From: Methylosinus sp. H3A
Lineage (GTDB): Bacteria; Pseudomonadota; Alphaproteobacteria; Rhizobiales; Beijerinckiaceae
Assembly (NCBI RefSeq): GCF_015709455.1
Contig: NZ_JADNQW010000008.1
Coordinates: forward strand, 18,485-82,484
Direction: 5' to 3'
Length of the DNA: 64,000 nucleotides
The position numbers and the translations under genes are program-made. Position 1 is the stretch's first letter; every line of letters begins with the position of its first letter. Below are positions 2,286 through 23,977 of the stretch, one piece after another. A model generated the notes under the pieces. That model saw only the letters and a list, made by a program, of their open reading frames with translations, had not been told where the DNA came from and did no database searches.

Positions 2286-4499
2286 CTAGAACTCGGCGCG
2301 CAGCGACGCGAGGAACGCGCGAGGCGCTCCGGGAACGACGCTGAATCGATCGAACGACCCCTCGTAATAGGTCGTTCCGGCGAGGTTCTTCACATTGATC
2401 TGAAATGTCAGATCCGGCGACCAAGGCAATAGGGAAGCCTTGAACCTGTAGGACGCCATCGCATCGACACGTGCATACGCCGGAAGCTCGAAAGTGTTGG
2501 CGTCATCGCCAGGCCGTATGTCGACATAGACGACACCAGCGCCGAGCCCCAGCCCCTTCCACACGCCATCGGCCTCGTATTTCACCCAGAGATTGGCCGA
2601 ATTGCGCGGAACGGCGGCGAGACGCTTGCCGGTGAGGCCGCCCGTTCCGGATGCGTCCTCGTCGCTCGTGACGACGGCGTCGATATGGCTGTATGTGGCG
2701 ATGATGCTCCAATTCTCGTTGATGCGGCCGTTGAGGTCGAACTCGACGCCGCGACTGTTCGCCGCGCCGATCGGCCGTACGAATGGCGTCCCAGGCACGG
2801 GACGAGTAATGTTTTTCTTGGTGATGTCGAAATAGGCGAAAGTCGCGGTCAGCCGCCTATCTAGCAGCTCGGCTTTGACTCCTCCCTCGAATTGCGTCCC
2901 TACCTGCGGGGGAAGATGCGCGTTCTGCGAGCTTACGCCATTGCTGGAGCCGTAAGAGCGCGTGTAGTTTCCATAGACGGACAGCCAGGGAAACGGCTGC
3001 AGGACGACGCCAACTCTTGGGCTGTTCGCGCTGGTCGGCACGACCACGCGACCCATGTCCGTATAGGCTAGAGGCTCGCCGCCGAAGTTTCTCTTGACGC
3101 TCGATTCGGCCCAATCATGCCGGCCTCCGATGAGGAGATGCACGCGATCGTCCCAGAAGGAAATCTGATCCTGAGCGTATATTCCTCTCCATTTGTCCTT
3201 GTCGACAAATGAAAAATTGCTCGTGAGCTGGTCACTGCTCGGCGTGTAGACAGGAGCGTAGATGTTGATGGCGGAGATGTCATTGCAGCAGTGCCCGACC
3301 ATCTTCCCTTCGTAGTCGAAATAATCGAACCCCACGAGGGTCTGATGGGAGAAAATCCCTGTCTCGAATTTTCCTTTGAGATCGATATTCGTGGCGACTG
3401 CACGGCGATAGGAGACTGGATACGACGAATTCGGCCCTGGCACGAACCACACAGAGCGCAACATATTCCCGGTCGCCTCGTCGAGAGAATATCCGCCGGT
3501 AACCGCCTGGCGATAGTCGACATTGTTGTAGCTCAGGCGGTTGGTCAGACTCCAGCCGTCCGTAAATTCGTAGGTCCAATCATAGGCGAAGAGCACCCGC
3601 TCCTGACCGTCGCGATATTTGGTCGTGAGATTCGGATCCCCGAGATATCGGCTGATCGAGATATTGGCAGGCCGGCGCCCCACCGCCGGAATTCCCAAGT
3701 CGCCCAGATCGTCCACCCAGCTCGATTTCTGGAACTCGCCGTCGACATTCAACGTGAAACGTTCGGTGGGACGCCAACTGACCGTGGGCGCGATAAAAAA
3801 ACTCTCCGTATTGACGAAATCTCGGAAAGAATTCTTGTTGAGGTAGGAAAGGTTCACCCGATAGGCGAGCGTCTTGTCCTCCGTCAGCGGTCCCGTGGCG
3901 TCGAGCAGCGTCCGCGTGTGGCCGAACGAGCCCGCCTGCTCCTGAATGGAATAGTAGGGCGTCGATTGCGGGCGCTTCGGGACGAAATCGATGAGACCGC
4001 CGGGCTCCACACGACCGAACAGCATCGCGGCCGGGCCTTTCAACACCTCGATCGCCTGCAAATTCGCGGTTTCGAATCCACTGGTGTTCATCTGCCGAAG
4101 GCCGTTGCGATACAGGCTGCCGCCGGCCGGAAGGCCACGTATGTTGAACTGGTCGTAGTACTGCACGCCGATCGAAACGCTGCTGACATTCTCGAGCAAG
4201 GCGTCCTTGACGCTCACCACTTGGCGGTCGTCCATCGTCTCTCGCGGCACGACCTGCACCGCATATGGCGTCTTCAGGATCGGAATGTTCGTCTTCGAGG
4301 ATGTCGGCGCGCCGACCGAATTGTAGCCGGTCAGACGCCCGCCGAGTTCGGCCTGCTTGTCGGTCGCCTCCGCCCCCGCTCGGCCGGTCGCGGACCCGAT
4401 GTCGATGGTAGGAAGCGCCTCTTGCGCGAGCGCCGGATAGACCAGAGTGAAAGACAAGGCGCCTGCGGAAGCGCAGCGCGTCAGCATCGAATATTTCAT
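2286..4499 (-). CDS. TonB-dependent siderophore-type receptor without STN domain
   Basis: This outer-membrane receptor has 737 residues. A signal peptide ends near PALAQE. A plug domain follows (TPYAVQVVPRETMDDRQ, EVLKGPAAMLFGRVEPGG), then a 22-strand-type barrel ending in aromatic F (LASLRAEF). ATG 4499 is chosen because AGGAGA precedes it; the upstream in-frame ATG at 4574 has no such support. There is no N-terminal STN signalling domain, so it should transport without talking to an anti-sigma factor. Over its whole length it resembles the MbnT-like receptor at 15061-17613 (shared blocks SVKDA, NVSSV, VKAELLD RLTA and others). A methanobactin or similar metallophore is therefore a reasonable but unproven substrate. 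Confidence 0.88.
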   Translation of the reverse strand: MKYSMLTRCASAGALSFTLVYPALAQEALPTIDIGSATGRAGAEATDKQAELGGRLTGYNSVGAPTSSKTNIPILKTPYAVQVVPRETMDDRQVVSVKDALLENVSSVSIGVQYYDQFNIRGLPAGGSLYRNGLRQMNTSGFETANLQAIEVLKGPAAMLFGRVEPGGLIDFVPKRPQSTPYYSIQEQAGSFGHTRTLLDATGPLTEDKTLAYRVNLSYLNKNSFRDFVNTESFFIAPTVSWRPTERFTLNVDGEFQKSSWVDDLGDLGIPAVGRRPANISISRYLGDPNLTTKYRDGQERVLFAYDWTYEFTDGWSLTNRLSYNNVDYRQAVTGGYSLDEATGNMLRSVWFVPGPNSSYPVSYRRAVATNIDLKGKFETGIFSHQTLVGFDYFDYEGKMVGHCCNDISAINIYAPVYTPSSDQLTSNFSFVDKDKWRGIYAQDQISFWDDRVHLLIGGRHDWAESSVKRNFGGEPLAYTDMGRVVVPTSANSPRVGVVLQPFPWLSVYGNYTRSYGSSNGVSSQNAHLPPQVGTQFEGGVKAELLDRRLTATFAYFDITKKNITRPVPGTPFVRPIGAANSRGVEFDLNGRINENWSIIATYSHIDAVVTSDEDASGTGGLTGKRLAAVPRNSANLWVKYEADGVWKGLGLGAGVVYVDIRPGDDANTFELPAYARVDAMASYRFKASLLPWSPDLTFQINVKNLAGTTYYEGSFDRFSVVPGAPRAFLASLRAEF

Positions 4500-4578
4500 G
4501 AGATGTTCTCCTGAGACGGCGCAAAAGCCGCCCGCATCGAGGAAGCCTGGAAAGGCGCAGCCGCTCGGCCGCACGATG

Positions 4579-5013
4579 TCAGGAGAAGGCAGGCGGCGCG
4601 CGAGACGACCAGGAACTGGTCCAGCCGGTTATGATCGGGCGAGCCGCGCATAAAGAAAAGCAGGCCGTCGTGACGATTGCTCTTTGCGCCGGATGTCGCC
4701 GGTCGGACGGCGGAGCGGCGAGCACATCGACGACGCGATCACGCTGCGCGCAGAGAACGCAACACTGACCTTGGTCGCCCTCGTGGGACGGCTCGTGACG
4801 ATCCGAACTCGCCGTGCAGATCCGACCCCCCGACCCGAGAGCCGAGGAGGTCGATAGCCGGTCGCGAAATGGTCGATGATCAGCAGAGGATCCGATGGAG
4901 GCGACGCCCAGCAGAATGAGGACCAGACCCACGAGACATGCGATCACCCCACGGACGGCCGAGCGCCATTGCCCCTCGCCGCAGTTCAGCTCACGGTGTT
5001 TCATGCGCGTCAT
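4579..5013 (-). CDS. DUF2946-like cysteine-containing membrane protein
   Basis: This 144-residue protein has one N-terminal membrane helix (AVRGVIACLVGLVLILLGVA), a QCCVLC cysteine cluster near the middle and a C-terminus of the GWTSSWSSRAPPA type. This resembles the small DUF2946 family (CxxC plus terminal RAPP-like motif) often found beside TonB receptors and copper genes. It lies 79 bp upstream of the receptor on the same strand and probably shares its promoter. A second protein with the same layout (19766-20179) heads the mbn regulatory genes. The exact role is unknown; metal handling in the periplasm is an inference. Confidence 0.6.
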   Translation of the reverse strand: MTRMKHRELNCGEGQWRSAVRGVIACLVGLVLILLGVASIGSSADHRPFRDRLSTSSALGSGGRICTASSDRHEPSHEGDQGQCCVLCAQRDRVVDVLAAPPSDRRHPAQRAIVTTACFSLCAARPIITGWTSSWSSRAPPAFS

Positions 5014-5273
5014 TCCGACCGAAGGCGTCGATTACCGACATAGGATTTATGTCATACACAGGCGATCCATTTGTCTTTTCATGGCAATTCTAATCGGAAA
5101 AGCTCATGTGAGCCTCATCGCCCGAGAGAGCGAGATAAAAAAGAGCGGCGCGGCGTCGACCGCGAAAGCTCGTCCCGGCCTATTGCCAAGAACCCGCCTT
5201 TGGTTATGAATGGCCGAGCGACGGGTTTTCTGACAGGAGACGCCGAACGCAGGACCAACTGGGAGCGGCGCCC

Positions 5274-5963
5274 ATGCGGATTCTGTTGGTCGAGGATTAT
5301 GCGGAGCTCGCAGGCGAGATCGCCTGTCGAATCGAGCGGGCGGGCTTCGCCGTCGATCGGGTCGGCTCGATCGAAAGCGCGTCCGCGGCTCTCGACAACG
5401 GGGCCTATACTGTGACTCTGCTGGACCGCAGATTGCCGGACGGCGACGGACTCTCGCTGATTTCGCAGATCCGCAAGCGGCAGCCGACGAGCCGCATCCT
5501 CGTGCTGACCGCGCTCGATTCCGTCGACGACAAGATCGAAGGACTGGACGCAGGCGCCGATGATTATCTGACCAAGCCCTTCAACCTCGACGAGATGATG
5601 GCTCGCGTCCGCGCGAGCCTGCGACGGCGCGGAGGCGATCGAACGCCGCCGATCATCGTTGGAGCGCTCTCCTACGACCTCGACGCGCGGACGGTGTCGA
5701 TCGCCAATCGCCCCGTTTTGTTTCTCCGCCGAGAGTTAGCGCTCCTGGACGCTCTTTTGCGGCGCGCGAATTGTGTCGTTCCGAGAGAGAGGCTGTTGAC
5801 CGGTGTCTACGGATTCGACGCGGAGGTCAACGAGCATGCGCTGACCGCCCTAGTCTCGCGTGTTCGCGCCCGCCTCGCCGAGCTCGACTCCGGCGTCGAG
5901 ATTCACGCGGCTCGCGGCCTGGGCTACCTCATCGCCAAGTCGAAATCCCGACCGCCGAAATAG
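5274..5963 (+). CDS. OmpR-family response regulator
   Basis: This 229-residue regulator has a receiver domain (residues 1-115) with the acidic pair near ED8, phospho-acceptor Asp51 in LLDRRLPDGDG and Lys101 in LTKPF. A winged-helix DNA-binding domain follows at about 130-222, ending in the typical RGLGYLI. The histidine kinase gene follows after 2 bp, so they form an operon. It is divergent from the DUF2946/receptor/PepSY set, with 260 bp between them, which suggests control of those genes. The signal is not known; the family includes metal- and polymyxin-responsive members. Confidence 0.9.
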   Translation: MRILLVEDYAELAGEIACRIERAGFAVDRVGSIESASAALDNGAYTVTLLDRRLPDGDGLSLISQIRKRQPTSRILVLTALDSVDDKIEGLDAGADDYLTKPFNLDEMMARVRASLRRRGGDRTPPIIVGALSYDLDARTVSIANRPVLFLRRELALLDALLRRANCVVPRERLLTGVYGFDAEVNEHALTALVSRVRARLAELDSGVEIHAARGLGYLIAKSKSRPPK

Positions 5964-5965
5964 GC

Positions 5966-7354
5966 ATGGCGCGCTCCCTCGCCAATCGCGTTGTCGCCTA
6001 TCTGGTCGTTTCGCAATTCATCGCATTCGCGGCCGGCTGGCTCGTCACTCTCGTCCTCGGCTTCGCCGGCTTCGGAATCTTCGAAGGATTCGGCCGAACG
6101 GCCGATGAGCTCGCCTCCACGCGAATGATCGGGCTCGTCCTGGCGTCGCTGAAGCAGGACGACGACGGCGCTCTGCGCCTCCAGCCGATACGCGAGCTTC
6201 GCGCCGAGGCGCGCGACACGCCACGCCTGAAATTCGCGGTTTTCGACGCGGCTCGAAACGTGGCGGCGGCCGGCTCCTCTCCGGAATTGATCGCGGCGTT
6301 GACCGGCGCGATCAAAGTCAATCCGACGCATACCCACTTCATCCTTCCCGGCGATCCGATCGAGTCTCCGCAGGGGCTGGTCGAGCCCGTGCGCACACCG
6401 TTCGGTCGGCTGCACGTAGCGGTCTATGCGATGAAATTCGTCTCGGCGGACCTGCTCTACGCGATCTACGAGGATTTCCGGCATCTGGTCGGCTTTTTCG
6501 TCGTGACCGCCCTTATCTCGGCCGGCGCGGCGATGTTCGCCGTGCGCCGCGGGCTGACGCCACTGCGCGCGGTCGCCGACGAGGCGGCCCGCATCGACAT
6601 GAACGAGCTGCAACAGCGCCTGCCCGTGGGCAATGTTCCGGCGGAGGTCGCTCCGCTGGTTCACGGAATGAATGTCGCGCTGGAACGGCTCGCCGCGAGC
6701 GCGGTGCGGATCCGCCGTTACGCGGACGATGCGGCGCACGAGTTGCGCACGCCGATCGCGATTCTACGTGCGAGACTCGACAATTTGGAGGAGCTTCCGG
6801 TCAAGGGCGCCCTACTTCGAGACGCGAGCCGCTTGCAGGCGATCATCGAGCAGATGCTCGCGGCCGCGCGTTTGTCCGGGCGGCAGGACACGCTCGATCA
6901 GGAGATCGATCTCGTGAGCTCGGTCCGTGAAGTCGTTTCACTGCATTTACCGCTCGCCATCGAATGCGACCGGATGATCGAATTCGACGCGGCCGCGCCG
7001 GTCATTGTCGCGCGCGGCAATTTTCGGGCGGTCGAGGCAATCGTCGCGAACCTCATCGACAACGCCCTGCGAGCCGAGCCGCCGGGGGGGACTATCATCA
7101 TCCGCGTGGGGCCTGGCCCAGTCGTCTGCGTGATCGATCATGGCGAAGGCGTCGCCCGAGCCGAGCGCGAGATGATTTTCGAGCCATTCTGGCGCAGGAG
7201 CGAGGCGACGCCAGGTACCGGGCTAGGCCTCGCCATAGCAAAAGAACTCATGGAAAAGTTGCGGGGCTCCATCGCTATCGAGGAAACGCCGGGTGGCGGA
7301 GCAACTTTTGAATTGATTTTCTCAGAGGGTGAATCGGCGCGACCTTGTCAGTGA
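5966..7354 (+). CDS. Sensor histidine kinase
   Basis: This 462-residue membrane kinase has helices at about 10-35 and 173-193 flanking a periplasmic sensor of about 135 residues. A HAMP-like linker follows. The dimerisation helix carries His258 in AAHELRTPIAIL. The ATP-binding domain has N-box NLIDNALRAE, DHGEG and GTGLGLAI. Its start ATG 5966 lies just after the regulator stop. The reading frame ends exactly where the decayed IS3 element begins: the stop TGA is part of the sequence tgaaccgccccggg. The last few residues (SARPCQ) may therefore have been supplied by the insertion. Confidence 0.9.
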   Translation: MARSLANRVVAYLVVSQFIAFAAGWLVTLVLGFAGFGIFEGFGRTADELASTRMIGLVLASLKQDDDGALRLQPIRELRAEARDTPRLKFAVFDAARNVAAAGSSPELIAALTGAIKVNPTHTHFILPGDPIESPQGLVEPVRTPFGRLHVAVYAMKFVSADLLYAIYEDFRHLVGFFVVTALISAGAAMFAVRRGLTPLRAVADEAARIDMNELQQRLPVGNVPAEVAPLVHGMNVALERLAASAVRIRRYADDAAHELRTPIAILRARLDNLEELPVKGALLRDASRLQAIIEQMLAAARLSGRQDTLDQEIDLVSSVREVVSLHLPLAIECDRMIEFDAAAPVIVARGNFRAVEAIVANLIDNALRAEPPGGTIIIRVGPGPVVCVIDHGEGVARAEREMIFEPFWRRSEATPGTGLGLAIAKELMEKLRGSIAIEETPGGGATFELIFSEGESARPCQ

Positions 7355-7734: not shown

Positions 7735-8332
7735 TGATCGCCTTCATCGACGCTCATCGGGAGGCGCATGAGGTCGAGCCGATCTGCGAGCTTTTGCCGA
7801 TCGCCCGTCGACCTATCGGGCGCATGCGACGCGTCGGCACGACCCCGCGAAAGCGTCAGCCCGGGCGCGTCGGGATGTGACCGTTCGCAAGGAGATACGG
7901 CGCGTCTTCGACGAGAACTTCCAGGTTTACGGCGCACGCGAGGTGTGGCGGCAGATGAAGCGGGACGGAGAGAGCGTAGCGCGCTGCACGGTCGAACGGC
8001 TGATGCGGGGCATGGGCTTGCGCGGCGCCGTGCGCGGCAGGCCCGTGAAGACAACAGTGAGCGATCGCAAGACGCCCTGTCCGCTCGATAAGGTCGACCG
8101 GCAGTTCCAGGCGCCTCGGCCGAATACGCTGTGGCTGTCCGACGTCACCTATGTCGCCACTTGGCAGGGCTTCGTCTATGTCGCCTTCGTCATCGACGCC
8201 TTCGCTCGGCGGATCGTCGGTTGGCGCGCCTCGCGCACGGCGCATGCGGGCTTCGTGCATCATAGTGATCGCGGCGTTCAATACGTCTCTATAAAATACA
8301 CAGCGCGCCTCGCCGAGGCCGGCGTCGAGCCC
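7735..8332 (+). pseudogene. IS3 orfB (DDE integrase) remnant
   Basis: The frame starts MIAFIDAHREAHEVEPIC. It loses phase near 7805, where a one-base deletion is likely (expected STYRAHATRRHD), and resumes in another frame as VTVRKEIRRVFDENFQVYGAREVWRQM. The first catalytic Asp region (LWLSDVTYVATWQGF) is kept. About 20 residues before the second Asp (HHSDRGVQYVSI) are missing. Similarity stops after GVEPSVGS, so the final Glu region is gone and the gene cannot work. Confidence 0.75.
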
Positions 8333-8371
8333 TCGGTCGGCAGCGGAGCCCGTGCGACCTGGGACGCGGCG

Positions 8372-9676
8372 TCAGATCGCCGTCGATGTTTCGGGGCCGG
8401 ACCGCGGCCGCGCGGCCCGCGAGACGAGAGGCGCCTGCTTCCAGAAGCGCAATGCGCCGAGACCTTCCGGGACGATCAGCGACAAATAAGCGACGAGAGG
8501 CGAATCGATATAAAGTCCGAGCGCGACGAGAGGCAAGGCGACGAGCCAAAAGACCGAGCTATCCGTTCTCGCCACCGTCCCGAACGACCCTCGAGCCTGC
8601 AAGACGGCTCTGAGGATCGACGTCATGTAGCGCAGCGGTATCGACGCGGCCAAAATTTCGACCAAGGTCGTCCACCAAGGACCATGCTGACCATATAATC
8701 GCCCGAGTGCGTCGGTTCCGGCCATGAGCAAGATCGCGACGCCCACGGCGAAGGGAGCGCCTTGCAGCGAGATCGTTCTGATCGAATCTATGAGGCGTTC
8801 GTCGGTGAGCCCTGCGAGGCGAAACGCGAGAAAGCGCATCAACGTGACGAGCGGCGTGAAAACAATCAACATCAACGTCTGACCGGCAGCGAAGCAATTC
8901 AGCCGCCCGACGTCATAATTGCCGAGTCCGGGCGCCGCGAACATGGTGAGGCATGCGAGCATAGCGAGATGCATGGCGACGCCGCGCTCGGACTCCCAGA
9001 GCGCCGCATTGCCGAAGCGGCGCGCCCATGAAGCGCCGGGCAAGGTCAGCCAATCGACGCCATGCCGCAATAGAGCCCAAATTCCCCAGATCGACGAGCC
9101 GACGCAGATGACGGCCCCTATCTGGAAGCAGCTGGAAAACCCCAGCCCGAAAATCTCCATGGCCAAAAAATTGCCGATGGCCTTGGCGGCGAACTCCCAC
9201 AGCTTCCATTTCACGACTCCGGCGCCTTGGTCGAGCGCATGGAGCATGAAGGCCGAAGTGCTGCTGATGAAGCGGAACGGCGCGGCGAACGAATACCAGA
9301 GCACTCCGTCGCAGATCAATCCGGCGATCGCATCATCGCCGACGAGCAGCTTCGCCAATCGGGGATAAGTCGCCGCTCCGAACGCCGCGCAACACAGGCC
9401 CGCGAGCAGCGAGAGCCATAGGATCGCTCCAATGACGCGCGGACTCGCCCCGTTTCGCCGCGCCTCGCCGATCGCGGTCGAAGCGACGGCGCCCATCGCG
9501 CTCAGCAAGATCACATCGACGACGACCAAACGCGTCGTCATCGCATAGGCCCCCGGCGCGCCGCCGCCCAAATGGCCGACCATTATGACATCGGCTTGCT
9601 GTGCGAGCTGTCCCGCCACGATCACGAGGAGCAAAGGCCAATAGCCTCGCCAAAAGCCCTTGTCGTTCTCGATCAT
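8372..9676 (-). CDS. mbnM: MATE-family exporter MbnM, methanobactin export
   Basis: This 434-residue multi-drug/MATE-type transporter has about 12 predicted membrane helices. It begins MIENDKGFWRGYWPLLL and carries the MATE-like N-terminal pattern QLAQQADVIMVGHLGG. Its ATG overlaps the mbnC stop (ATGA), so the two are translationally coupled. Position after mbnA-mbnB-mbnC matches the known role of MbnM in exporting the mature apo-peptide. The decayed IS3 element abuts its stop codon, and nothing that looks like mbnP or mbnH follows. Confidence 0.9.
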   Translation of the reverse strand: MIENDKGFWRGYWPLLLVIVAGQLAQQADVIMVGHLGGGAPGAYAMTTRLVVVDVILLSAMGAVASTAIGEARRNGASPRVIGAILWLSLLAGLCCAAFGAATYPRLAKLLVGDDAIAGLICDGVLWYSFAAPFRFISSTSAFMLHALDQGAGVVKWKLWEFAAKAIGNFLAMEIFGLGFSSCFQIGAVICVGSSIWGIWALLRHGVDWLTLPGASWARRFGNAALWESERGVAMHLAMLACLTMFAAPGLGNYDVGRLNCFAAGQTLMLIVFTPLVTLMRFLAFRLAGLTDERLIDSIRTISLQGAPFAVGVAILLMAGTDALGRLYGQHGPWWTTLVEILAASIPLRYMTSILRAVLQARGSFGTVARTDSSVFWLVALPLVALGLYIDSPLVAYLSLIVPEGLGALRFWKQAPLVSRAARPRSGPETSTAI

Positions 9677-10263
9677 AGAGGTATGGGGCGCCACCCCGGG
9701 AAATGATCGAGCTCGTAGCCCGGCGTCCGAAAGCATCCGAAATTGCCTTCTGGCGCCGGAAGCTCGCATTCGAACTCGACCTGTTCGACTTCGATGAAGC
9801 GTGTCTCTATGCTGCTGAGCTTCCAGCCGGCGACAGCCTTCGTCGGCTCGATCAGGCGGCTCGCGATGACGATCCCGCAATAGTCGAGATCACGGTCGCG
9901 CCCCGACCACCGCGATGCGGCCGCAGCCATGAGCTTCAGAGCGAGGTCTGCTCCGACGCGCTCACGAAACTCCGATTGCAGCAGCCATTCCGCCGCCCAG
10001 ATATGATAGGCCCAATCGAATGTGAGGTTCTTCTCCTGCGCCCATTGCATGAACGGCAGGAAAATCGCGCGCCCGTCGGGGCCCGAAAGCTCCAACAATT
10101 GCGGAACGGCGTCGAACAGCACATGCCAATAGGCCCGATAGCTGATGTCGAGACGAACATGACTTCGTGACTCTCGCGCGAACGCGTCGAGCCGCGAAGG
10201 ATTCATCATGTCTTGATAGAGATCGGCGTCGATTCTAGCCGGCGCAGGCGACAAGAGACTCAT
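9673..10263 (-). CDS. mbnC: MbnC, partner of the methanobactin-modifying enzyme
   Basis: This 196-residue protein begins MSLLSPAPARIDADLYQ. It has the size and position of MbnC, which binds the MbnA leader and forms the MbnBC complex that turns two core cysteines into oxazolone/thioamide groups. No catalytic motif is expected in MbnC. The start overlaps the end of mbnB by 29 bp and the stop overlaps mbnM, so all three are coupled. The call rests on context plus recognisable MbnC-like sequence (RAYWHVLFDAVPQLLEL, FDWAYHIWAAEWLL). Confidence 0.88.
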   Translation of the reverse strand: MSLLSPAPARIDADLYQDMMNPSRLDAFARESRSHVRLDISYRAYWHVLFDAVPQLLELSGPDGRAIFLPFMQWAQEKNLTFDWAYHIWAAEWLLQSEFRERVGADLALKLMAAAASRWSGRDRDLDYCGIVIASRLIEPTKAVAGWKLSSIETRFIEVEQVEFECELPAPEGNFGCFRTPGYELDHFPGWRPIPL

Positions 10264-11065
10264 TCGTCGTGTCCTCGGCGTGGGGGAATATCTCGCGCAG
10301 ACGTTCGAGATCGATCGCGATCGAATCATATTCGATCTCGAAATCGCGCTCATATGTGATCGTCGAGCCCGGCTTGTCGAATGCCGCGCGCATGGAGCGA
10401 AGGAACTCCAACGTATCCGGCGCCATTTCCCTGTCGTGCGAATCGACGATGACTCGCGGATCCAGAAACGAAGGCCCATATCCCGCGACATGAAAATGTC
10501 GCGTCGACGAGATGACGTCGTTCCAAGCGTCCAGCGACGCGCCGCAATTGTGTCGGGCGACCACCGCATTGGAGGCGTCGAAGAGGACGCCCGCTCCGGT
10601 CTCTCGGCAGAGCTTTCGAAAAAACTCGGGCTGCTCCCATCCGCCGTCCATGATGGATGGGTAGTTTTCGAGATGGAGTTGGACGCCGAGCATATCCTGC
10701 CATTGCTCCACGCGATTGCGCACGGGGTCATATTGGGCGTAATCGATTTCGCCGAGATAGAAGAGATTCCGTCCGTTCGGCGCAAAGCGCAGCAGATGGT
10801 CGGACACATAGACCGGCTGTAGCGCATCGATGAAAATGCGAATCTGCTTGGCAAGCTTCTCGAGCGTCTCTCTATCATTCTCGAGAAACTTCGACAGCAT
10901 GATATGGAACCCGACCGGACACTCGAACGCATCCGCCAGCTCTTTGACCGGAACATTCAAGAAATTGTCGATGAGCAGCTCGCAATAGTCGATCTGCCGC
11001 TCTCTGAGCATGCGCCGAACCATGTCCAGCGTGCCGTTCAAGGTGAAGTTGAATCCGATTTGCAT
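10235..11065 (-). CDS. mbnB: MbnB, DUF692 iron enzyme modifying MbnA cysteines
   Basis: This 276-residue protein is of the DUF692 TIM-barrel family. With MbnC it oxidises and rearranges Cys of the precursor to oxazolone plus thioamide using a multi-iron centre. Barrel-end metal-ligand-type motifs are present: VGFHIMLSK, YVSDHLLRF, LHLENYPS, FDASNA, HVAGY, DSHDREM. ATG 11065 gives the N-terminus MQIGFNFTLNGTLDMV, the usual MbnB beginning; an in-frame ATG at 11092 would add nine residues. It directly follows mbnA. The related bufferin enzymes (HvfB) are excluded by the adjacent MbnA-type precursor. Confidence 0.93.
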   Translation of the reverse strand: MQIGFNFTLNGTLDMVRRMLRERQIDYCELLIDNFLNVPVKELADAFECPVGFHIMLSKFLENDRETLEKLAKQIRIFIDALQPVYVSDHLLRFAPNGRNLFYLGEIDYAQYDPVRNRVEQWQDMLGVQLHLENYPSIMDGGWEQPEFFRKLCRETGAGVLFDASNAVVARHNCGASLDAWNDVISSTRHFHVAGYGPSFLDPRVIVDSHDREMAPDTLEFLRSMRAAFDKPGSTITYERDFEIEYDSIAIDLERLREIFPHAEDTTNESLVACAG

Positions 11066-11109
11066 CTGGAAAGCTTTCGACGATGTCCGCATGGAAGCTG
11101 GAAAGCCGC

Positions 11110-11130
11110 CCCCGGCCGTATGAACCGGGG
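11110..11130 (-). promoter_or_regulatory. Hairpin between mbnA and mbnB
   Basis: A 6-bp GC stem (CCCCGG/CCGGGG) with a 9-base loop lies between the mbnA stop and the mbnB start. No run of T follows, so it is not a standard terminator. It could reduce read-through or protect the mbnA message, giving more precursor than enzyme. This role is an inference. Confidence 0.4.
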
Positions 11131-11149
11131 ACGACGCTGCCGAATAAAA

Positions 11150-11245
11150 TCAGCAGGTGCCGCACCACGGCGGGTTGCACGCGCACATGGCCTGAACGCG
11201 GCCGATCACGGGGAGGATTTCCTTCTTGACTACTTTGATGGTCAT
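11150..11245 (-). CDS. mbnA: Methanobactin precursor peptide MbnA
   Basis: This 31-codon gene encodes a 19-residue leader, MTIKVVKKEILPVIGRVQA, with the conserved LPVIGR block of MbnA leaders. The 12-residue core that follows is MCACNPPWCGTC. By analogy with the OB3b precursor, Cys21 (before Ala) and Cys28 (before Gly-Thr) are the likely oxazolone/thioamide sites. Cys23 and Cys31 could then form the disulfide. GGAGC lies about 10 bases upstream of ATG 11245. Two hairpins lie upstream and one downstream. The core has a Pro-Pro-Trp insert and one more residue between the predicted modified cysteines than OB3b. Confidence 0.95.
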   Translation of the reverse strand: MTIKVVKKEILPVIGRVQAMCACNPPWCGTC

Positions 11246-11358: not shown

Positions 11359-12504
11359 TTATGTCGAAAGACCCGAAGATTCGCGGCTCTCGGCGGACGA
11401 CAGTGATGCGAGCGCTTCGAGGAGCGCATCGTTTTCCGACGGCGTCCCGACGGTGATGCGCAAATGTTTCCCGATCCGAGAGGTCGGAGGAAACGCTTTG
11501 ACGAAGATGCGAAATCTCTCTCTCAATTCCTCCGCGACGCTCGCGCCGGCCCGCGGCGTCGCGCAAAAGAGGAAATTGCCTTCCGAACGAAAGGGGGAAA
11601 AGCCCGGCATCGCAGCCAGTTCCTCACGCAGGCGCTCGCGCTCGCGCTTCACTTGGTCGATGAGCGGCTGGAACAGAGCGGCTTCTTCGAGAAAGATTCG
11701 CGCGACGCATGCGGTCATCGCATTCACGCGGTAAGGGAGCGAGGCGCGTTCCAATTCGCGAATGAGCGGCTCCGATGCGACGAGATATCCCAATCGGCAC
11801 CCCGCGAGTCCGATCTTCGAAAATGATTGCGCGACGATTACATTGTGGCGATCGATCGCATCCGTCGCATAGGAGACGCCGGCATAGGCGGAATATGCCT
11901 CGTCCAGGCACAGCAGGTCGCTCGTGGACGCCGCGAGCCGCTCGAATGCGGCGCGATCCAGGGCACGGCCGGTCGGATTATTGGGATTGCCGACATAAAA
12001 TATCTTTGCGCCCTCCACCACCGTCATTTTGTCGGCGACCTCCGTCGACAAGGCAAATGCGTCGTCGAGCGGAATGGTGACGAAGCCTTTGTCGTTGAGA
12101 GCGGCGAAATGCCCGTAGAGCGGGAATGTCGGCGTCGGAACGACCACCGCGTCGAACGGCCCCCCGAAAGCACGACAAACGAGATCGAGCATTTCCGTCG
12201 AGCCGACGCCGAGAAGAATATTTTCGGCGCGCACGCCGATATTCGCTGCGATCTCGGCCTCGAGCGCATCGATCTCCGTCGCATCCGGATAGTGTCGAAA
12301 GTCGATCGCCGAAATCTCTCGCGCGACACGCGTCAGGAATTCGTCCGGGAGAGGAAAACGCATCTCATTGGCGTCGAGACAAAGGCCGTCGCTCCGCGGA
12401 ATCGAGCCGTATATCGGCGTCGCTCCCAAGCGTCTCTTGGCTTGCGGCCTGGCCGTCGCAGAGTGTGGCGCTGGTTGCTCAAGAACATCGATCAGGTCCG
12501 ACAA
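11359..12504 (-). CDS. mbnN: MbnN, PLP-dependent aminotransferase (HisC-like)
   Basis: This 381-residue class I/II aminotransferase of histidinol-phosphate type carries the NPNNPTG loop, DEAYSAY and the PLP lysine in QSFSKIGLAGCRLGYL. In known systems MbnN deaminates the N-terminal residue of the core once the leader is removed, giving a keto group. The start is read as TTG 12504 because AGGAGA sits 6-7 bases ahead; no ATG nearby has such support. It lies immediately upstream of mbnA, whereas in the OB3b operon mbnN follows mbnM. A pure histidine-pathway role is unlikely in this context. Confidence 0.85.
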   Translation of the reverse strand: MSDLIDVLEQPAPHSATARPQAKRRLGATPIYGSIPRSDGLCLDANEMRFPLPDEFLTRVAREISAIDFRHYPDATEIDALEAEIAANIGVRAENILLGVGSTEMLDLVCRAFGGPFDAVVVPTPTFPLYGHFAALNDKGFVTIPLDDAFALSTEVADKMTVVEGAKIFYVGNPNNPTGRALDRAAFERLAASTSDLLCLDEAYSAYAGVSYATDAIDRHNVIVAQSFSKIGLAGCRLGYLVASEPLIRELERASLPYRVNAMTACVARIFLEEAALFQPLIDQVKRERERLREELAAMPGFSPFRSEGNFLFCATPRAGASVAEELRERFRIFVKAFPPTSRIGKHLRITVGTPSENDALLEALASLSSAESRESSGLST

Positions 12505-12863: not shown

Positions 12864-13553
12864 TTATCGGGCGGCCGTGTCGGGGAGGCTCAGCTCCAGC
12901 GCTTTCGACAATCGCGTGCGATGCGCCTCAATCTTATCGCTTTCGGAGCGAGGAATTTGTGGAAATGCGAGCGCCTGCGCGCAAGCATTAGTCGCGGCGG
13001 CGATCGATGTCGGCGAATTCGGCTTTTTGAAGCATTTGCGCCAGCTCTCGATATATCTCGCCATGCTCGGATCGAAGGGCGTCGCCGATCCGGCGCGATG
13101 CGCATCCGCGTCGACGCCCTCATCATTTTCGCAGACTGTTTCGATGATCTTGCAGGGATCTTTCGCGCGGCATTCGGTGTCGGCTTTGTCTCGGGCGTGA
13201 GCGAGACTGTCGCCGATCGCCGCTGCGTAGCGAGATCCGTCGAGACTCGCCGCGACGGCGGCGCAGCCGTCGTGAAACGACTGCACGACCGTGCAGGCGC
13301 TTCTCTCGCCGCCGCAGACATAGACGGCGAATCGCGCGGCCCCGCGCGGGTCTGAAAAGCCGCGAGCGGAGCCCGTCAGCCATTCCCCATTGTCGCGTCG
13401 TCCGAGCGCGAGAGCCGACTCCGCCCGAGAGTCGGAAGAGGCTCCCGATATGAGCAAAATCCACGTCGATAGGATGTATGCGGCGCTGCGTCCGAGGCGC
13501 ACTCTCTTCGGCCTGTGGGCATGAGCATGAAATAGTGAGATTGGTTCGGTCAT
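12864..13553 (-). CDS. Secreted DUF4189-like protein
   Basis: This 229-residue protein has an N-terminal export signal (about residues 22-43, AAYILSTWILLISGASS, cleavage near SRA). A DUF4189-type domain follows, with pattern GSARGFSDPRGAARFAVYVCGGERSACTVV and conserved Cys. The C-terminal half is Cys-containing and helical (IESWRKCFKKP). Its function is not known. It lies between the second sigma factor and mbnN on the same strand. Six or more Cys in an exported protein would fit metal binding or disulfides, which is only an inference. Confidence 0.65.
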   Translation of the reverse strand: MTEPISLFHAHAHRPKRVRLGRSAAYILSTWILLISGASSDSRAESALALGRRDNGEWLTGSARGFSDPRGAARFAVYVCGGERSACTVVQSFHDGCAAVAASLDGSRYAAAIGDSLAHARDKADTECRAKDPCKIIETVCENDEGVDADAHRAGSATPFDPSMARYIESWRKCFKKPNSPTSIAAATNACAQALAFPQIPRSESDKIEAHRTRLSKALELSLPDTAAR

Positions 13554-13622
13554 GAACGAGCTCGATTGCTGATGAGTCGACGCACGCTCGACGAGTCGAC
13601 GAATGCGCGCGCCTGTCGGAAG

Positions 13623-14144
13623 TCATGCGGGATTCGACGATTGAAACGCCATGCTGTGGCGTAAATCGCCACGGGCTTTGGTCAAGTGCCTTTCCACCGT
13701 TCGTGTCGATACGCCGCAACGGTCGGCGATTTCGGCGTTGGTGGCGCCGTCGACCACTTTCAAGAGGATGATCTGCTTGCGCAATGGCGACAGCTGTTCG
13801 AATGTCGAGGAATAGTGGTGGAGCTCGGCAACGTTCGGCGTGTCGGAATGAATGGGAAGGACGACGGATTCGTCGAAGGGCGTCGCGGCGTCGGTAAAGG
13901 CGGAGCGGAGCTTTCGCCGCCTGTGCATGTCGGTGACGAGATTGGCGGTGATGCGATATAGATAGGCGCGCGGGCAGGTTAGCTTTTCGGCTCCCTCCTT
14001 CACCAGTCGCAGATAGGCCTCCTGAACGACGTCTTCTGATTCTTCCCAACCGAGCCGACGGCTGGCGAATTGACGTAATCTGGGCGCATAGTCCCGGTAG
14101 AGCTGTTGGACCGACTTCTCCTTCGCTGTCATGCGCATCTCCAT
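13623..14144 (-). CDS. ECF sigma factor, FecI-like (orphan)
   Basis: This 173-residue sigma-70 family factor has region 2 (residues about 10-75, DYAPRLRQFASRRLGWEESEDVVQEAYLRL) and region 4 (about 110-160, LSPLRKQIILLKVVDGATNAEIADRCGVSTRTVERHL). It resembles FecI-type iron or MbnI sigma factors. It has no FecR gene next to it; the only anti-sigma gene in the island is mbnR, 4 kb away. It is intact, unlike the frameshifted mbnI, so it could have taken over regulation of the cluster. Confidence 0.85.
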   Translation of the reverse strand: MEMRMTAKEKSVQQLYRDYAPRLRQFASRRLGWEESEDVVQEAYLRLVKEGAEKLTCPRAYLYRITANLVTDMHRRRKLRSAFTDAATPFDESVVLPIHSDTPNVAELHHYSSTFEQLSPLRKQIILLKVVDGATNAEIADRCGVSTRTVERHLTKARGDLRHSMAFQSSNPA

Positions 14145-14184
14145 AGCTTCGCTCGGAAGTGGTGAAACAGGCGTTCTGTGGGCT

Positions 14185-14517
14185 CTAGCGTCTATGGCGC
14201 GATCGATCGCCTCCTTCGCCGCCGAGCTTCTTCACGGATCTGGCCAACGGCCGAATATGAGAATGGCTTCGGTTCAAAGCGATCTGATTCATCGGCACGA
14301 CGAAGACGGCGGAGGCGTTCGACGCATCCGCGAGCGCGATCCGGCACATGAGTCCGAACTGTTCGCCAGCGTCGAAGACTTCGATCACCGTGAGGCGGGG
14401 CGAGCGTCGGACATCGATCGAACGACTACGCAAGAAGGACAATAGCGCGGGTCGGCCTTGCGCCGCGAAAGGCAATTCGCGTCGCAGGCGAGCGATGAGC
14501 TCTCTTTCTCTTTGCAT
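14185..14517 (-). CDS. Hypothetical 110-residue protein
   Basis: This soluble protein starts MQRERELIARLRRELPFAAQGRPALLSFLRSR and has a strand-rich middle (RLTVIEVFDAGEQFGLMCRIAL, SAVFVVPMNQIAL). Its composition looks like a real protein, a GAGGCG sequence lies upstream of the ATG, and it fits between mbnT and the orphan sigma gene on the same strand with a 40-bp gap. I do not recognise a family. Confidence 0.5.
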   Translation of the reverse strand: MQRERELIARLRRELPFAAQGRPALLSFLRSRSIDVRRSPRLTVIEVFDAGEQFGLMCRIALADASNASAVFVVPMNQIALNRSHSHIRPLARSVKKLGGEGGDRSRHRR

Positions 14518-15060: not shown

Positions 15061-17613
15061 TCAGAACTCCCATCGGAGCGAGCCGAGGAAGCTGCGCGGC
15101 GTTCCCGTTTGAATCGTCGTCCTGCTGCTCGCCGTAGGATAATAGATGGTGTCGGTTATGTTCTTGACGTTGAGCTGCGCGGTCACCTTGTAGCCCGCGA
15201 TCTCGGTCGCATAGGCGACCATGCCATTGAGCAGCGCATAGCTCGGCAGGATCAATGTGTTGGCGTTATCGCCGAAGAAATCGTCGACGACGGTGACGCC
15301 GGCTCCGAGGCTCAGACCGCGCAATTCGCCATCGGCTGCATATTTGACCCAGAGGTTGCCGTAGTTGCGCGGGCTGCCGGGCAGCTTATTGCCGGCAACC
15401 GCGAGCTGCGTCGTCATCAGCGTGGCGGGATTATAGGTGAGCGCGCCTTGTATCGTGCGCACATCGTCATGCGTGTAATTGGCGATCACGCTCCAATTGT
15501 CGTCGATGCGGCCCATGAGATCGAATTCGACGCCGCGGCTGCGCGCTTTTCCGATGACCAGCGAATTGCTCGCATTGGTGGGGTCCGGCGTCAGAATATT
15601 CGTCTTTGTGATGTCGAAATAGGCGAGCGTCGCCGTCAGCCGACCGTCGAGGAGTTCCGCTTTGACTCCGCCTTCGAACTGCTCGCCTTTTTGCGGCGGA
15701 AGCGCCACTCCGAGGCTGGTCGTATTGTTCAAGCCGAAGGAACGCGTGAAATTGCCGTAGAGCGAGAGCCATGGCGTCGGCTGATAGACGAGGCCGACTC
15801 TGGGGCTGAACGCCTTATTATAGACCGTGGTGTAGGAAGCGAGAGCGCCGGCGAGCGAGGTGACGGTCTTATTGCTGCCCGTTTCCGCCCAATCATAGCG
15901 CCCGCCCAGCAGCACATGAACCGAGTCGTCGAAGAAGGAGACCATGTCCTGCGCATAGACGCCGGTCCAGCGTTGATCCTGCGTGATGTATTGTGGGGCG
16001 GCGAAGGGATTGTCGAGCGTCCAATAATTGGGAGCATAGATGTTTATCGAGCTCGTCGCTGCGAATATATTCGTGTACATCGGCATATGAGTGCTGAGAT
16101 AATCATAGCCGACGAGGGTCGAATGCGATAGCGGGCCCGTCTCGAACTTGCCTTTGAGGTCCAAATTGGTCGCGAAGTCGAATTCGTGGAATCCGCCGCC
16201 GAGCGTGGAGTTCGTCAATGTGCGCGTGAGAACGCCGGTCGCTTGATTGATGGTCACGCCGAGCGCGTTGATCTGGCTGTCGTCGAATGTCGAATAGCTC
16301 ATCCGATTGGTGAGGCTCCAACCGGGGAAGAAATCATAGGTCCAGTCATAGGCGACGCGCTTCTTGTCGTATTCGTGCGGAGAGGTCGTCGTCAGAAGCG
16401 GAGTCTGAAGATAGCGCGAGATCGGTATCGGCGCAGGATAGGAGCCGATCGCCGGCAGCACGGGATAGTCGTCGACCCAAGTGCGATGCTGATATTCGAA
16501 ATCTATGTTCATCCGGAATTGCTCGGTCGGACGAAAGCTCAGCGTCGGCGCCAGAAAAATATTCTGGTCCTTCACGAAATCCCGATAGGAATAGGTGTGG
16601 TAGAATTCGCCGTTGATCCGATATCCGAATACATTGTCCGGCGTCAGCGGACCGGTGGCGTCGACCGTCGTTCGGGTAAGTCCATAAGAGCCGTTCTGCT
16701 GCTGAACGGAATAATAAGGCGTCTCCAACGGGCGCTTCACCACGAGATCGATGAGGCCGCCGGGCTCCACGCGGCCATAGAGAATCGCCGCCGGACCTTT
16801 CAGCACCTCGACCGATTGCAGATTAGCGGTGTCGAGATAGCGCATTCGGTATTCCATCAGGCCGTTCTTATAAGAGTTGCCATTGCTGGAAAATCCACGA
16901 ATCTTATAAGATTCGGAAAAGCCTGGAGTCGTTTGCACGGAGCTGACATTGGTGACGATCGCGTCCTTGACGCTGATCGCTTGCTGATCGTCCATCAGCT
17001 GCCGCGTCACCACTTGAACGGCCACCGGCGTTTTGAGCAGCGGCGTGTCCATCTTCATGGCGCTGGACGCGTTTTCGGCCTTATACCCGGTCATGCGATC
17101 GCCGGGGCCCTGGGGAGCGCCGCCAGCGCGACGACCCGCGCGATCGGCGTTCGATTCGTGTCCGATGTCGATCGTCGGCAGCGGCGTCGCGCCCTCCGGG
17201 TTCGCGTCATTGCGCACTTCGGTCGCCTGGGCGAGAACGATCACCACGGATTTTCCGTTGGGCGACAGCTCATATTTCAAGCCGGTTCCGGACAGAACTT
17301 CCGAAAGCGCTTCGGCGAGGCTGTGCTGGCCGGTCAGTCCTCTGGTCCGATGGGAACGGGTGAGGCGCGAATCATAGACGATGCGGACGCCGCTCGCATC
17401 GGCGACGCTGTTCAGCGCGGTCGATATGGGGCCGGCCGGAATGTCGTAGCTGCGGACGATCTCGGAGATTTCCCTCTGCGACATCTGCGCATGCGCTTCG
17501 GCGCGATCCGCGTTCGAGCCGAACGCTATGGCGCTCATCACGGACGCGATGGCCGTGGCGCTCATCATCCCACCCTTCGCCGACTTGCTTCCATTGAGAA
17601 TCCGATCCGACAT
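15061..17613 (-). CDS. mbnT: MbnT-like TonB-dependent receptor with STN signalling domain
   Basis: This 850-residue outer-membrane transducer has a signal peptide ending near AEAHAQ. The STN domain follows at about residues 50-125 (YDIPAGPISTALNSVADASGVRIVYD). The plug contains VAVQVVTRQLMDDQQAISVKDA and EVLKGPAAILYGRVEPGG. The C-terminal barrel ends in GSLRWEF. In FecA-type systems the STN domain contacts the FecR anti-sigma factor, here mbnR just upstream, which links uptake to gene control. The position between mbnR and the biosynthesis genes matches MbnT, importer of copper-methanobactin. ATG 17613 is the likely start; in-frame ATG 17661 is the alternative. Confidence 0.88.
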   Translation of the reverse strand: MSDRILNGSKSAKGGMMSATAIASVMSAIAFGSNADRAEAHAQMSQREISEIVRSYDIPAGPISTALNSVADASGVRIVYDSRLTRSHRTRGLTGQHSLAEALSEVLSGTGLKYELSPNGKSVVIVLAQATEVRNDANPEGATPLPTIDIGHESNADRAGRRAGGAPQGPGDRMTGYKAENASSAMKMDTPLLKTPVAVQVVTRQLMDDQQAISVKDAIVTNVSSVQTTPGFSESYKIRGFSSNGNSYKNGLMEYRMRYLDTANLQSVEVLKGPAAILYGRVEPGGLIDLVVKRPLETPYYSVQQQNGSYGLTRTTVDATGPLTPDNVFGYRINGEFYHTYSYRDFVKDQNIFLAPTLSFRPTEQFRMNIDFEYQHRTWVDDYPVLPAIGSYPAPIPISRYLQTPLLTTTSPHEYDKKRVAYDWTYDFFPGWSLTNRMSYSTFDDSQINALGVTINQATGVLTRTLTNSTLGGGFHEFDFATNLDLKGKFETGPLSHSTLVGYDYLSTHMPMYTNIFAATSSINIYAPNYWTLDNPFAAPQYITQDQRWTGVYAQDMVSFFDDSVHVLLGGRYDWAETGSNKTVTSLAGALASYTTVYNKAFSPRVGLVYQPTPWLSLYGNFTRSFGLNNTTSLGVALPPQKGEQFEGGVKAELLDGRLTATLAYFDITKTNILTPDPTNASNSLVIGKARSRGVEFDLMGRIDDNWSVIANYTHDDVRTIQGALTYNPATLMTTQLAVAGNKLPGSPRNYGNLWVKYAADGELRGLSLGAGVTVVDDFFGDNANTLILPSYALLNGMVAYATEIAGYKVTAQLNVKNITDTIYYPTASSRTTIQTGTPRSFLGSLRWEF

Positions 17614-17825
17614 CGATTTGGTTCCGTCCCGTCTCCTAGCGGCAGGCACAGCGCCTCCCACTCTGACAAGGACGAAGCTCTCCTCCTCCGGGGAGGTCGA
17701 CGAGTTAAAAAATTCTCCTTTCCCTATGCCGCGAGCGCGAGGCCGCCGCCTTCGCCCCGACGGCGGGCCCGCTATACAACAAGACGAACGGCGGCCGCGA
17801 TAGGGGACGCGGCCGCGCGGAAAAA

Positions 17826-18085
17826 GGGGTTGTGTCGCAAATTTTGTCTGCGGAGGTGACGCAGAGACGTGTATAGAGTGACGCGGCTTACGCCGCGAGG
17901 GCGTAGAAATGCTGCGCTGGACGCAATATGGTCCTGGTCTGAAACGGATCCTTTCGGATCATATGCTTGAGTTCGCTCCCTGGAAGTTTCGCGGCAGCCG
18001 ATCGAAATGATTTGAAACCCGACATCGGCCTCGTCATTCGCTTCACCGCGCGATAGTCCTATTCGACAATGTCATTGAGAAGATC
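17826..18085 (-). pseudogene. IS6-family transposase 3' remnant
   Basis: The minus strand encodes the C-terminal part of an IS6-type transposase: NDIVE, then an in-frame TAG where Gln is expected, then DYRAVKRMTRPMSGFKSFRSAA and a terminal HFYALAA with stop at 17888-17890. Beyond the stop, ggggttgtgtcgcaaatttt (17826-17845) resembles an IS6 terminal repeat. Everything upstream of the NDIVE block is missing. It sits between mbnR and mbnT. Confidence 0.65.
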
Positions 18086-18099
18086 AAATAAAATCTTTT

Positions 18100-19059
18100 T
18101 TATCCCGTGAGCACGACAATATAGCCGAGATCGAGAGCCCGGAGGCCGAGGGCCTTCTCGATCGCGGAAATCGCGGCCATCGGCTCTGCCGCATCGAACA
18201 CGCCGCTCACACGCCTCTCGCGGATCGACGGATCGAGAATCAAAATGTATCCGCGCAAATAATGTCCGAGGACGGAGACAACCTCCGTGAGCGGCCTGTC
18301 GTCGAAAATCAGCTTTCCGCGCCGCCATGCGGTCACATGGTCGACCTGCACCCGATATGGAGCAACCGCGGCGGCGCCCGGCCCAAAAGCGCTCTGTTCG
18401 CCTTCATCGACAATGATCGCCGGGCCGCCCGCCATGACGCGCACGCGATGCTGCGCGACTGTGACCTCGGTTCGTTCCCCTGTGGTCGAAATGTCGAAAC
18501 TGGTGCCGAGAGCCGTCACCGAGCCGCGGGCGATCAGAACGGAGAAGGGCCTGTCGGCGTCCGGCGCGACGTCGAACCAAGCCTCCCCCCTCAGGAGCGT
18601 CACGTTTCTCTTGCCTTCGTCGAAATCCAGCGAGATGGCCGAGCGAGGGCCGAGTTCGATCCGAGAGCCATCCGCGAGCCGAACCATCCGCGTCTCCGCG
18701 ACGCCGGTGCGGGCCTGCGCCCATAGCATGATCCAGGCGTCGTCGAAGAAGACATAGGACAACAGGGCGAAAGCGAGCCCCGCGAGGCCGGCGGCGACGC
18801 GAGCGTGCGGCATCCGGCGCGGCGGGGGCACCTCGAACTCGTCGATGAGTGGCCGCAGGCCTTCGAGATCGCCCCAGATACGGCAAACCTTTTCGAATGC
18901 TTCGCGGTTCGACGGGTCACGTGTCAGCCAAAGGACGAACGCCTCGCGCTCCTGCGGCGTCGGGGCTCGGCAGTCGAGGCGCGTCCACCATTCGATGGCC
19001 GCTCTCCGACGGCTCGCCCGATCAAAGGGAGCGTCATCCTCCTCCATACGTCGCGCCAA
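18100..19059 (-). CDS. mbnR: MbnR, FecR-family anti-sigma factor
   Basis: This 319-residue inner-membrane regulator has an N-terminal DUF4880 sigma-binding domain (AIEWWTRLDCRAPTPQEREAFVLWLTRDPSNREAFEKV split over residues 20-60). One helix follows (about 85-107, VAAGLAGLAFALLSYVFF). The periplasmic FecR domain contains VRLADGSRIELGPRSAISLDF and LIARGSVTALGTSFDI. The C-terminal part would contact the MbnT STN domain. A TTG at 19059 with AAGAGGT about 6 bases upstream is as good a start as ATG 19047. mbnI ends 95 bp upstream. The stop is followed almost at once by the IS6 remnant, so co-transcription with mbnT may be weakened. Confidence 0.85.
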   Translation of the reverse strand: MARRMEEDDAPFDRASRRRAAIEWWTRLDCRAPTPQEREAFVLWLTRDPSNREAFEKVCRIWGDLEGLRPLIDEFEVPPPRRMPHARVAAGLAGLAFALLSYVFFDDAWIMLWAQARTGVAETRMVRLADGSRIELGPRSAISLDFDEGKRNVTLLRGEAWFDVAPDADRPFSVLIARGSVTALGTSFDISTTGERTEVTVAQHRVRVMAGGPAIIVDEGEQSAFGPGAAAVAPYRVQVDHVTAWRRGKLIFDDRPLTEVVSVLGHYLRGYILILDPSIRERRVSGVFDAAEPMAAISAIEKALGLRALDLGYIVVLTG

Positions 19060-19154
19060 TCTACCTCTTATCGGGCGTCACCGCCGCCACTGATCCCTTA
19101 CTGTAAGAGGACGTATGTCGGCAGTGGTAAAGGAGCTCGTCTCGAGGAAAAATT

Positions 19155-19654
19155 TTAGTCGAGCGCCGCATGGCACCGCTCTAGCGCCAATCGTAGATGT
19201 TTGAGGACCATGTTTCGGGAAATGCCCAACCTATGAGCGATCTCGTCCGGCGAGAGATCATGGAAGCGGCGTAAGATGAACACCTCCCGGCACTTGGGGG
19301 TAGGCTCGTCAACGAGGCGTAGAACAAGCGGACGCTTTCCTTCGCCTCACAAATCTGCGACGGATCAAGCCCAGCCTCGGCGATCTCGGTCGGAATATCG
19401 CCTGGCGCGACGTGCTTGGCTATGCTCTTGCGGTGACGGGAGAAGTCGCGTGCGAGATTGATCGCCGTCGTTCGCAGATAGGCGTCCTCGTCGACGATCG
19501 GCCCGATCTCCCGACGCCGCAGGAGTCGCACAAAGGTCTCTTGTAGAAGATCGAAAGCATCTTCATGGCCCACGCGCCGCGTCAGACAGCCGAGAAGATC
19601 GCGCTTGTTGCGCTCGAAGAGTTTGCCGATCAAACGGCCTTTGGTCTTGGACAT
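19155..19654 (-). pseudogene. mbnI: MbnI-type ECF sigma factor, frameshifted in region 4
   Basis: Region 2 is intact (LFERNKRDLLGCLTRRVGHEDAFDLLQETFVRLL). After LTSLPP the frame breaks at a run of five G on the plus strand (19296-19300). The other frame then encodes a perfect region 4, CREVFILRRFHDLSPDEIAH then RLGISRNMVLKHLRLALERC, with stop at 19155-19157. Six C in the coding strand would restore one frame of about 166 residues. As written, the product is 157 residues with a scrambled DNA-binding tail. Either the gene is inactivated or the base was lost in sequencing. It forms a FecI-FecR-FecA set with mbnR and mbnT. Confidence 0.8.
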
Positions 19655-23827: not shown

Positions 23828-23882
23828 GTTCCTTTGCCTCGTTCAGGCAAAAGAAATCCGCTCACCAAAACGGCGCCGACTC

Positions 23883-23966
23883 TTGACAGCGATTCGCGGA
23901 AGTGGGATTCTCGGAGTGCTTAAATCAGAGAAGGGCTTCCGGGCGGCGACGTTCGGGGGCTTTTTT
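23883..23966 (+). ncRNA. repABC antisense RNA (ctRNA, inc-alpha type)
   Basis: On the strand opposite repC, TTGACA (23883-23888) and GATTCT (23906-23911) are separated by 17 bp and would start RNA near 23918. A stem GCTTCCG/CGGGGGC (23935-23941 with 23954-23960, two G-U pairs) is followed by TTTTTTCTTTT. An RNA of about 50 nt in the repB-repC gap is the standard ctRNA that represses RepC synthesis. The coordinates include the promoter. Confidence 0.7.
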
Positions 23967-23970: not shown

Positions 23971-23977
23971 TGCGGGT

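Follow-up and report, generated by a model that had tools for sequence, protein, structure and literature searches.

We conclude that a 64,000-nucleotide stretch of the Methylosinus sp. H3A contig NZ_JADNQW010000008.1 (hereafter the window) carries a real methanobactin cluster that belongs to Group I and to a Methylosinus species, is OB3b-like in its gene content, and whose peptide is very probably that of Methylosinus sp. LW4; we put the probability of this reading at roughly 0.83. Methanobactins control the supply of copper on which biological methane oxidation depends, and medicine takes an interest in them with regard to copper overload. The cluster extends on the minus strand from an mbnI-like gene at 19654 to the end of mbnM at 8372 (Table 1). 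It extends the precursor to another species and provides an instance of mbnN preceding mbnA, and it leaves the general picture of how methanobactins work unchanged.

The product of the precursor gene mbnA passes both curated methanobactin precursor models, scoring 40.7 bits with Pfam PF25751, whose cut-off is 27, and 27.9 bits with NCBIfam TIGR04071, whose cut-off is 24. By alignment with OB3b, cleavage would divide it into a leader of residues 1–19 and a core of residues 20–31, MCACNPPWCGTC, which is 12 amino acids (aa) long, with cysteines at residues 21, 23, 28 and 31 (core positions 2, 4, 9 and 12) and prolines at core positions 6 and 7. A sequence-only reading of this DNA had proposed a methanobactin cluster with an MbnA precursor bearing the leader block LPVIGR, and in this it was right: the open reading frame (ORF) is as it was read, both model cut-offs are exceeded, and leader block and core sequence agree with the ORF check and the OB3b alignment. 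ORFs of 31 aa are frequent by chance, and such an ORF might encode no methanobactin at all; we rejected this explanation, whose probability we regard as negligible, because two curated models are over cut-off, mbnB follows directly, and the precursor is identical in a second species. When the whole genome of the window was searched for precursors, the only strong match was mbnA itself, the next standing at E 0.59. We likewise rejected the idea that the genome holds another methanobactin gene, as one of six MbnB-like places exceeded the MbnB cut-off and no other strong precursor match was present.

The genes following mbnA are tightly packed: mbnB begins 84 bases after mbnA and overlaps mbnC, which is overlapped in turn by mbnM over 4 bases. 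Although the longest ORF of mbnB starts at 11092, its start is most likely at 11065 (MQIGFN), where solved MbnB chains start. Six distinct MbnB sequences of solved structure can be aligned with the present MbnB over most of the latter's length, at up to 425.7 bits, and the catalytic aspartate, Asp240 in Vc and Asp242 in Rr (PMC8888699), is kept as Asp241 in the PDB alignments. The sequence-only reading had correctly placed mbnB, mbnC and mbnM, all of them over their NCBIfam cut-offs, after mbnA, but the interval it gave (9673–11245) holds only mbnA, mbnB and mbnC; its gene content was also incomplete, the mbnN-like gene at 12504..11359 and the mbnT-, mbnR- and mbnI-like genes at 15061–19654 having been overlooked. 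The mbnN-like gene lies upstream of mbnA and ends 113 bases before it. Its product shares 50.7% identity over 349 aa with the aminotransferase whose gene follows mbnM in the OB3b-type genome, and scores 249 bits against the hisC model TIGR01141, just under the cut-off of 276.55.

The whole cluster recurs in the same order, again with mbnN before mbnA, in a second Methylosinus species (genome G001), with identities of 31/31 residues for MbnA, 98% for MbnB, 99% for MbnC, 94% for MbnM, 92% for MbnN and 98% for the receptor. Over the 96 bases of mbnA a single base differs, silently, and silent codon changes outnumber changed ones by 24 to 6 in MbnB and by 18 to 2 in MbnC; the cluster is probably functional. 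A degenerate pattern for CACNPPWC matched in 2 of 397 family genomes, the genome of the window (G000) and G001. Of 385 class-level genomes, 5 had a match above the cut-off of the Pfam precursor model, and the readable precursors among these, that of the window aside, end in CCGSCCAPVGVN or RCATICAVAG. MbnB was found at E 1e-20 or better in seven of the ten Methylosinus genomes, one of which, G009, carries exactly the OB3b precursor. At the MbnB-matching loci L024, L027, L033, L040 and L041 the precursor was unreadable, the match lay below the MbnB cut-off (L040, L041), or the locus was cut by a contig end. The MbnB reading of G007 (L009/L039, contig G007:C66) holds one TAG stop; a split mbnB is described in OB3b (Kenney 2013, PMC3621798). 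MbnB protein matches occur in plasmids of M. parvus, Methylosinus sp. C49 and M. iwaonis, and the genome_contigs collection yielded one locus, in a Chromatiales metagenome-assembled genome. No relative was found among viral contigs, nor any near DNA match to the window among plasmids; records near the window may have been left out of these searches.

The methanobactin of Methylosinus sp. LW4 was reportedly described by Kenney et al. in JACS in 2016. The core of the LW4 peptide is presumably the present one. G001 is very probably strain LW4: the LW4 operon is listed among three that contain a transaminase, with mbnP elsewhere (PMC3621798), and G001 shares both features, its own mbnP being located away from the mbn cluster. 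The LW4 peptide is stated to carry two oxazolone-thioamides (PMC12538549). LW4 has been paired with PW1 at 90% average nucleotide identity (PMC7285482); with the window genome 86.5% identical to G001 over 172 kb of chromosome, that pairing speaks neither for nor against the identification. The core string was not found in the literature text that can be searched by letters, a search outside which the figures and the LW4 paper fall. Whether the variant had been published was left open by the sequence-only reading; by way of the identical precursor in G001, which fits LW4, we can now say that the present precursor is very probably identical to that of LW4 and its peptide already described.

Group I methanobactins have been defined by cores of 11–15 residues with four non-adjacent cysteines and prolines, and a C(G/A/S)(S/T) motif was present at least once in every core surveyed (Kenney and Rosenzweig 2013, PMC3621798). 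The core encoded here has 12 residues, four non-adjacent cysteines, prolines, and the motif at Cys28-Gly29-Thr30; the sequence at the first site, Cys21-Ala-Cys, departs from the motif. In the same source MbnN is tied to N-terminal transamination and MbnF is suggested for pyrazinedione formation. MbnN matches were confined to the window, G001 and the OB3b-type genome, three of the ten stretches searched, although the stretches of G007 and G003 are short and may have had an MbnN upstream (that of G007 stops about 1 kb upstream of mbnB). MbnF relatives of at least 56% identity were found in G002, G003, G005 and G007 among the ten Methylosinus genomes compared, and none at that level in G000, G001 or G009; G001 has one 33% match far from its mbn cluster. 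G002, G005, G007 and M. parvus have an MbnF relative, with no MbnN match in their stretches. Within the Methylosinus genomes with both flanks readable, MbnN and MbnF are alternatives. Because MbnN without MbnF is the OB3b pattern, an OB3b-like product is the best prediction: oxazolone/thioamide groups at Cys21 and Cys28, a Cys23–Cys31 disulfide and a deaminated N-terminus. Arithmetic for such a product (two four-electron oxidations, disulfide, deamination) gives an apo mass of 1273.31 Da; applied to OB3b it gives 1154.26, which is the published OB3b mass.

From these genes we infer a course of expression, maturation and uptake that would begin with translation of mbnA under copper shortage. 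The leader would be held by MbnC while the iron centre of MbnB, with O2, would act on Met20-Cys21 and Trp27-Cys28, converting each into a heterocycle/thioamide pair; both heterocycles would most likely be oxazolones. A disulfide would form between Cys23 and Cys31, the leader would be removed by a cut before Met20, and the mbnN-like aminotransferase would turn the N-terminal amine into a carbonyl. The peptide would then leave through MbnM, and its copper-loaded form would be imported by the STN-bearing TonB-dependent receptor, signalling through the FecR protein and an extracytoplasmic-function (ECF) sigma factor.

The precursor shares with that of OB3b (core LCGSCYPCSCM) the LPVIGR leader block, four cysteines, one of them in an X-Cys at core position 2, and a core proline, and the loci have in common mbnA-B-C-M with mbnN and an STN-type TonB receptor accompanied by FecR and a sigma factor. 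They differ in that the OB3b cysteines occupy positions 2, 5, 8 and 10, the second site is Pro-Cys in OB3b and Trp-Cys here, and mbnN follows mbnM in the OB3b-type genome. As the sequence-only reading had noted, the cysteines likely to be modified are one residue further apart than the first and third of OB3b: the spacing from Cys21 to Cys28 is 7, against 6 in OB3b and 4 in Methylocystis cores. The core of Methylosinus sporium NR3K likewise has 12 residues by its own numbering, with a disulfide from an early cysteine to the C-terminal Cys12; that early cysteine is at position 5 in NR3K rather than 4, and NR3K has an N-terminal pyrazinedione (PMC5947558). Other Methylosinus/Methylocystis Group I precursors, those of C49 and G002 (MCSSCPMCGPLCP), of G007 (MCGSCNTCKTGC), and of an M. 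parvus plasmid and G246 (FCSSCSGGGQCGCGPA), agree with the present one in the leader, the four cysteines and the X-Cys at position 2 and differ in having their second cysteine at position 5 in each case. Overall, the cysteines of other Group I cores lie at positions 2, 5, 8 or 11, and 10, 12 or 13, and a cysteine at position four was limited to the present core among the genomes whose precursors could be read; similar Methylosinus cores are all described with a cysteine at position four or five and another at the last or penultimate place (PMC5947558).

The core is within the known range, and its description as non-classical in the sequence-only reading does not hold against the Group I definition. 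Nor is there support for the accompanying expectation of an altered copper cage and affinity. The Cu(I) sites of structurally different methanobactins are called "remarkably similar", with affinities of 10^20–10^21 M^-1 for all those investigated (PMC5947558), and those peptides differ from one another as much as this one differs from them or more; the sequence thus gives no ground for expecting a changed cage or affinity, and a new copper cage has little support.

Genes for replication and partition, repC, repB and repA, lie at 22493–26272 (minus), all over cut-off, on the same contig as the mbn genes, and place the 82.5-kb contig in a plasmid or a replicon of that kind. Over 11.9 kb, the mbn block and its G001 counterpart share 94.25% identity, as compared to 86.48% over 172 kb of chromosome. 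Differences at fourfold sites amount to 0.083 for the mbn genes together, against a chromosomal median of 0.193, but values as low occur in 18 of the 87 mechanical ORF pairs taken from the chromosome, and some of those ORFs are surely not genes. These figures are suggestive of horizontal exchange of the cluster, although the fourfold-site test does not single out the mbn block.

The Group I receptor set is present, with STN, plug, barrel, FecR and sigma domains. The mbnT-like receptor is 98.3% identical in G001 and 50.7% identical in the OB3b-type stretch. The sigma factor at 19181–19654 is frame-shifted: its region 4 lies in another frame, a six-frame comparison shows the G001 gene to be whole, and the same split appears in alignments to L042, L044 and L045. 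The frame change may be decay or an assembly error. At the other end of the cluster, an integrase-core ORF at 7877–8698 (plus) adjoins mbnM, and homology to G001 ends at 8346.

Several observations weigh against the picture of a functional cluster making an OB3b-like peptide already described from LW4. One is that NR3K has a pyrazinedione at its N-terminal site although its MbnA resembles that of OB3b (PMC5947558), so that ring type cannot be safely read from sequence; doubt has also been expressed that one enzyme set makes both rings (PMC8788703). The same cluster might thus yield another mature peptide, with an N-terminal pyrazinedione or other ring or with the remaining two cysteines as free thiols, and the position of Cys23 at core position 4 instead of 5 would give a different disulfide loop, while the choice between disulfides and further heterocycles in four-cysteine cores was left open by Kenney 2013 (PMC3621798). 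The presence of MbnN, together with the lack of an MbnF relative of at least 56% in G000 or G001, as in the OB3b-type genome, argues for the OB3b-like product instead. So does the statement that the last or penultimate cysteine is "probably" the partner of the one at position four or five (PMC5947558). The Cys23–Cys31 disulfide, raised as a possibility in the sequence-only reading, has a parallel in NR3K, where a disulfide joins the second core cysteine to the C-terminal one (Basle 2018, PMC5947558). We consider a different mature peptide unlikely, if a shade less so than the two alternatives that follow.

The broken mbnI-like gene, to begin with, would also be expected if the cluster were decaying in the present strain, its peptide perhaps not made or not controlled normally, and the integrase-core ORF beside mbnM, with the stop in G001 homology at 8346, could be taken in the same sense. 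A single assembly base error would, however, look identical, and a second, intact ECF sigma factor lies within the cluster. Moreover, mbnA, mbnB, mbnC, mbnM and mbnN are all open, with ATG starts in all except mbnN; MbnA is unchanged relative to G001, and the changes in MbnB and MbnC are mostly silent. Decay is accordingly improbable. As for LW4, its MbnN is stated to follow MbnM (PMC3621798), but mbnN precedes mbnA both here and in G001. Were G001 not LW4, the core would be uncharacterised, with a copper site in which one oxazolone derives from Trp-Cys, the heterocycles stand seven residues from each other and the disulfide starts at core position 4; its genes would travel between Methylosinus species on a repABC replicon that also bears the receptor and signalling genes. 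Given the transaminase and the separate mbnP that LW4 and G001 have in common, we hold this to be improbable, and prefer to regard the locus as very probably encoding the LW4 peptide.

Table 1. Genes of the methanobactin cluster, with positions in the window and the matches on which the assignments are based (scores in bits, followed by the model cut-off).
Feature	Position	Strand	Evidence
mbnM, methanobactin export MATE transporter, 434 aa	8372..9676	minus	NF045578 472.9 vs 285
mbnC, MbnB partner, 196 aa	9673..10263	minus	TIGR04160 224.5 vs 185; solved MbnC chain 7tcr_C, E 1e-74
mbnB, iron-dependent maturase (MNIO/DUF692), 276 aa	10235..11065	minus	TIGR04159 429.9 vs 325
mbnA, methanobactin precursor, 31 aa	11245..11150	minus	ATG to TGA ORF, full reading MTIKVVKKEILPVIGRVQAMCACNPPWCGTC
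mbnN-like class I/II aminotransferase, 381 aa, TTG start	11359..12504	minus	PF00155 146.3 vs 19.7
DUF4189 protein	12864..13553	minus	PF13827 41.1 vs 25
Second ECF sigma factor, intact	13623..14144	minus	Sigma70_r2 and r4_2 over cut-off; 94.8% in G001, 39% in OB3b-type stretch
110-aa ORF	14185..14517	minus	Without NCBIfam match; 78% in G001, 49% in OB3b-type stretch
mbnT-like TonB-dependent receptor, N-terminal STN domain, longest ORF, GTG start	15061..17661	minus	TIGR01783 335.9 vs 223.5; PF07660 33.0 vs 28.4
mbnR-like FecR anti-sigma factor, TTG start	18100..19059	minus	PF04773 75.9 vs 24
mbnI-like ECF sigma factor, frame change after about residue 118	19181..19654	minus	Sigma70_r2 alone found

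Between the mbnT-like receptor and mbnN sits a module of the DUF4189 protein, the second ECF sigma factor and the 110-aa ORF (12864–14517), which is also near the mbn genes in G001; in the OB3b-type stretch L043, a related module, 31–49% identical, is located on the downstream side of mbnN. The region 2286–7354 holds another TonB receptor, one that lacks the STN extension, together with a 144-aa ORF and divergently oriented response regulator and histidine kinase genes. These genes are arranged as they are next to the second mbn cluster of the Methylosinus sp. C49 plasmid pMSC49c, and this receptor perhaps serves a foreign methanobactin. The HTH_21/integrase-core ORFs at 7877–8698 (plus) and 28128–28955 (minus) are insertion-sequence remnants or copies. 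Elsewhere on the plasmid-like contig are ATP synthase alpha- and beta-type genes at 32929–39523 (minus), where the 7.5-kb block 32969–40488 is 90.6% identical to G001:C2, and a two-partner secretion pair at 52166–57201 (minus), in which a TPS-domain exoprotein bearing GLUG motifs is matched by a transporter of the ShlB type.

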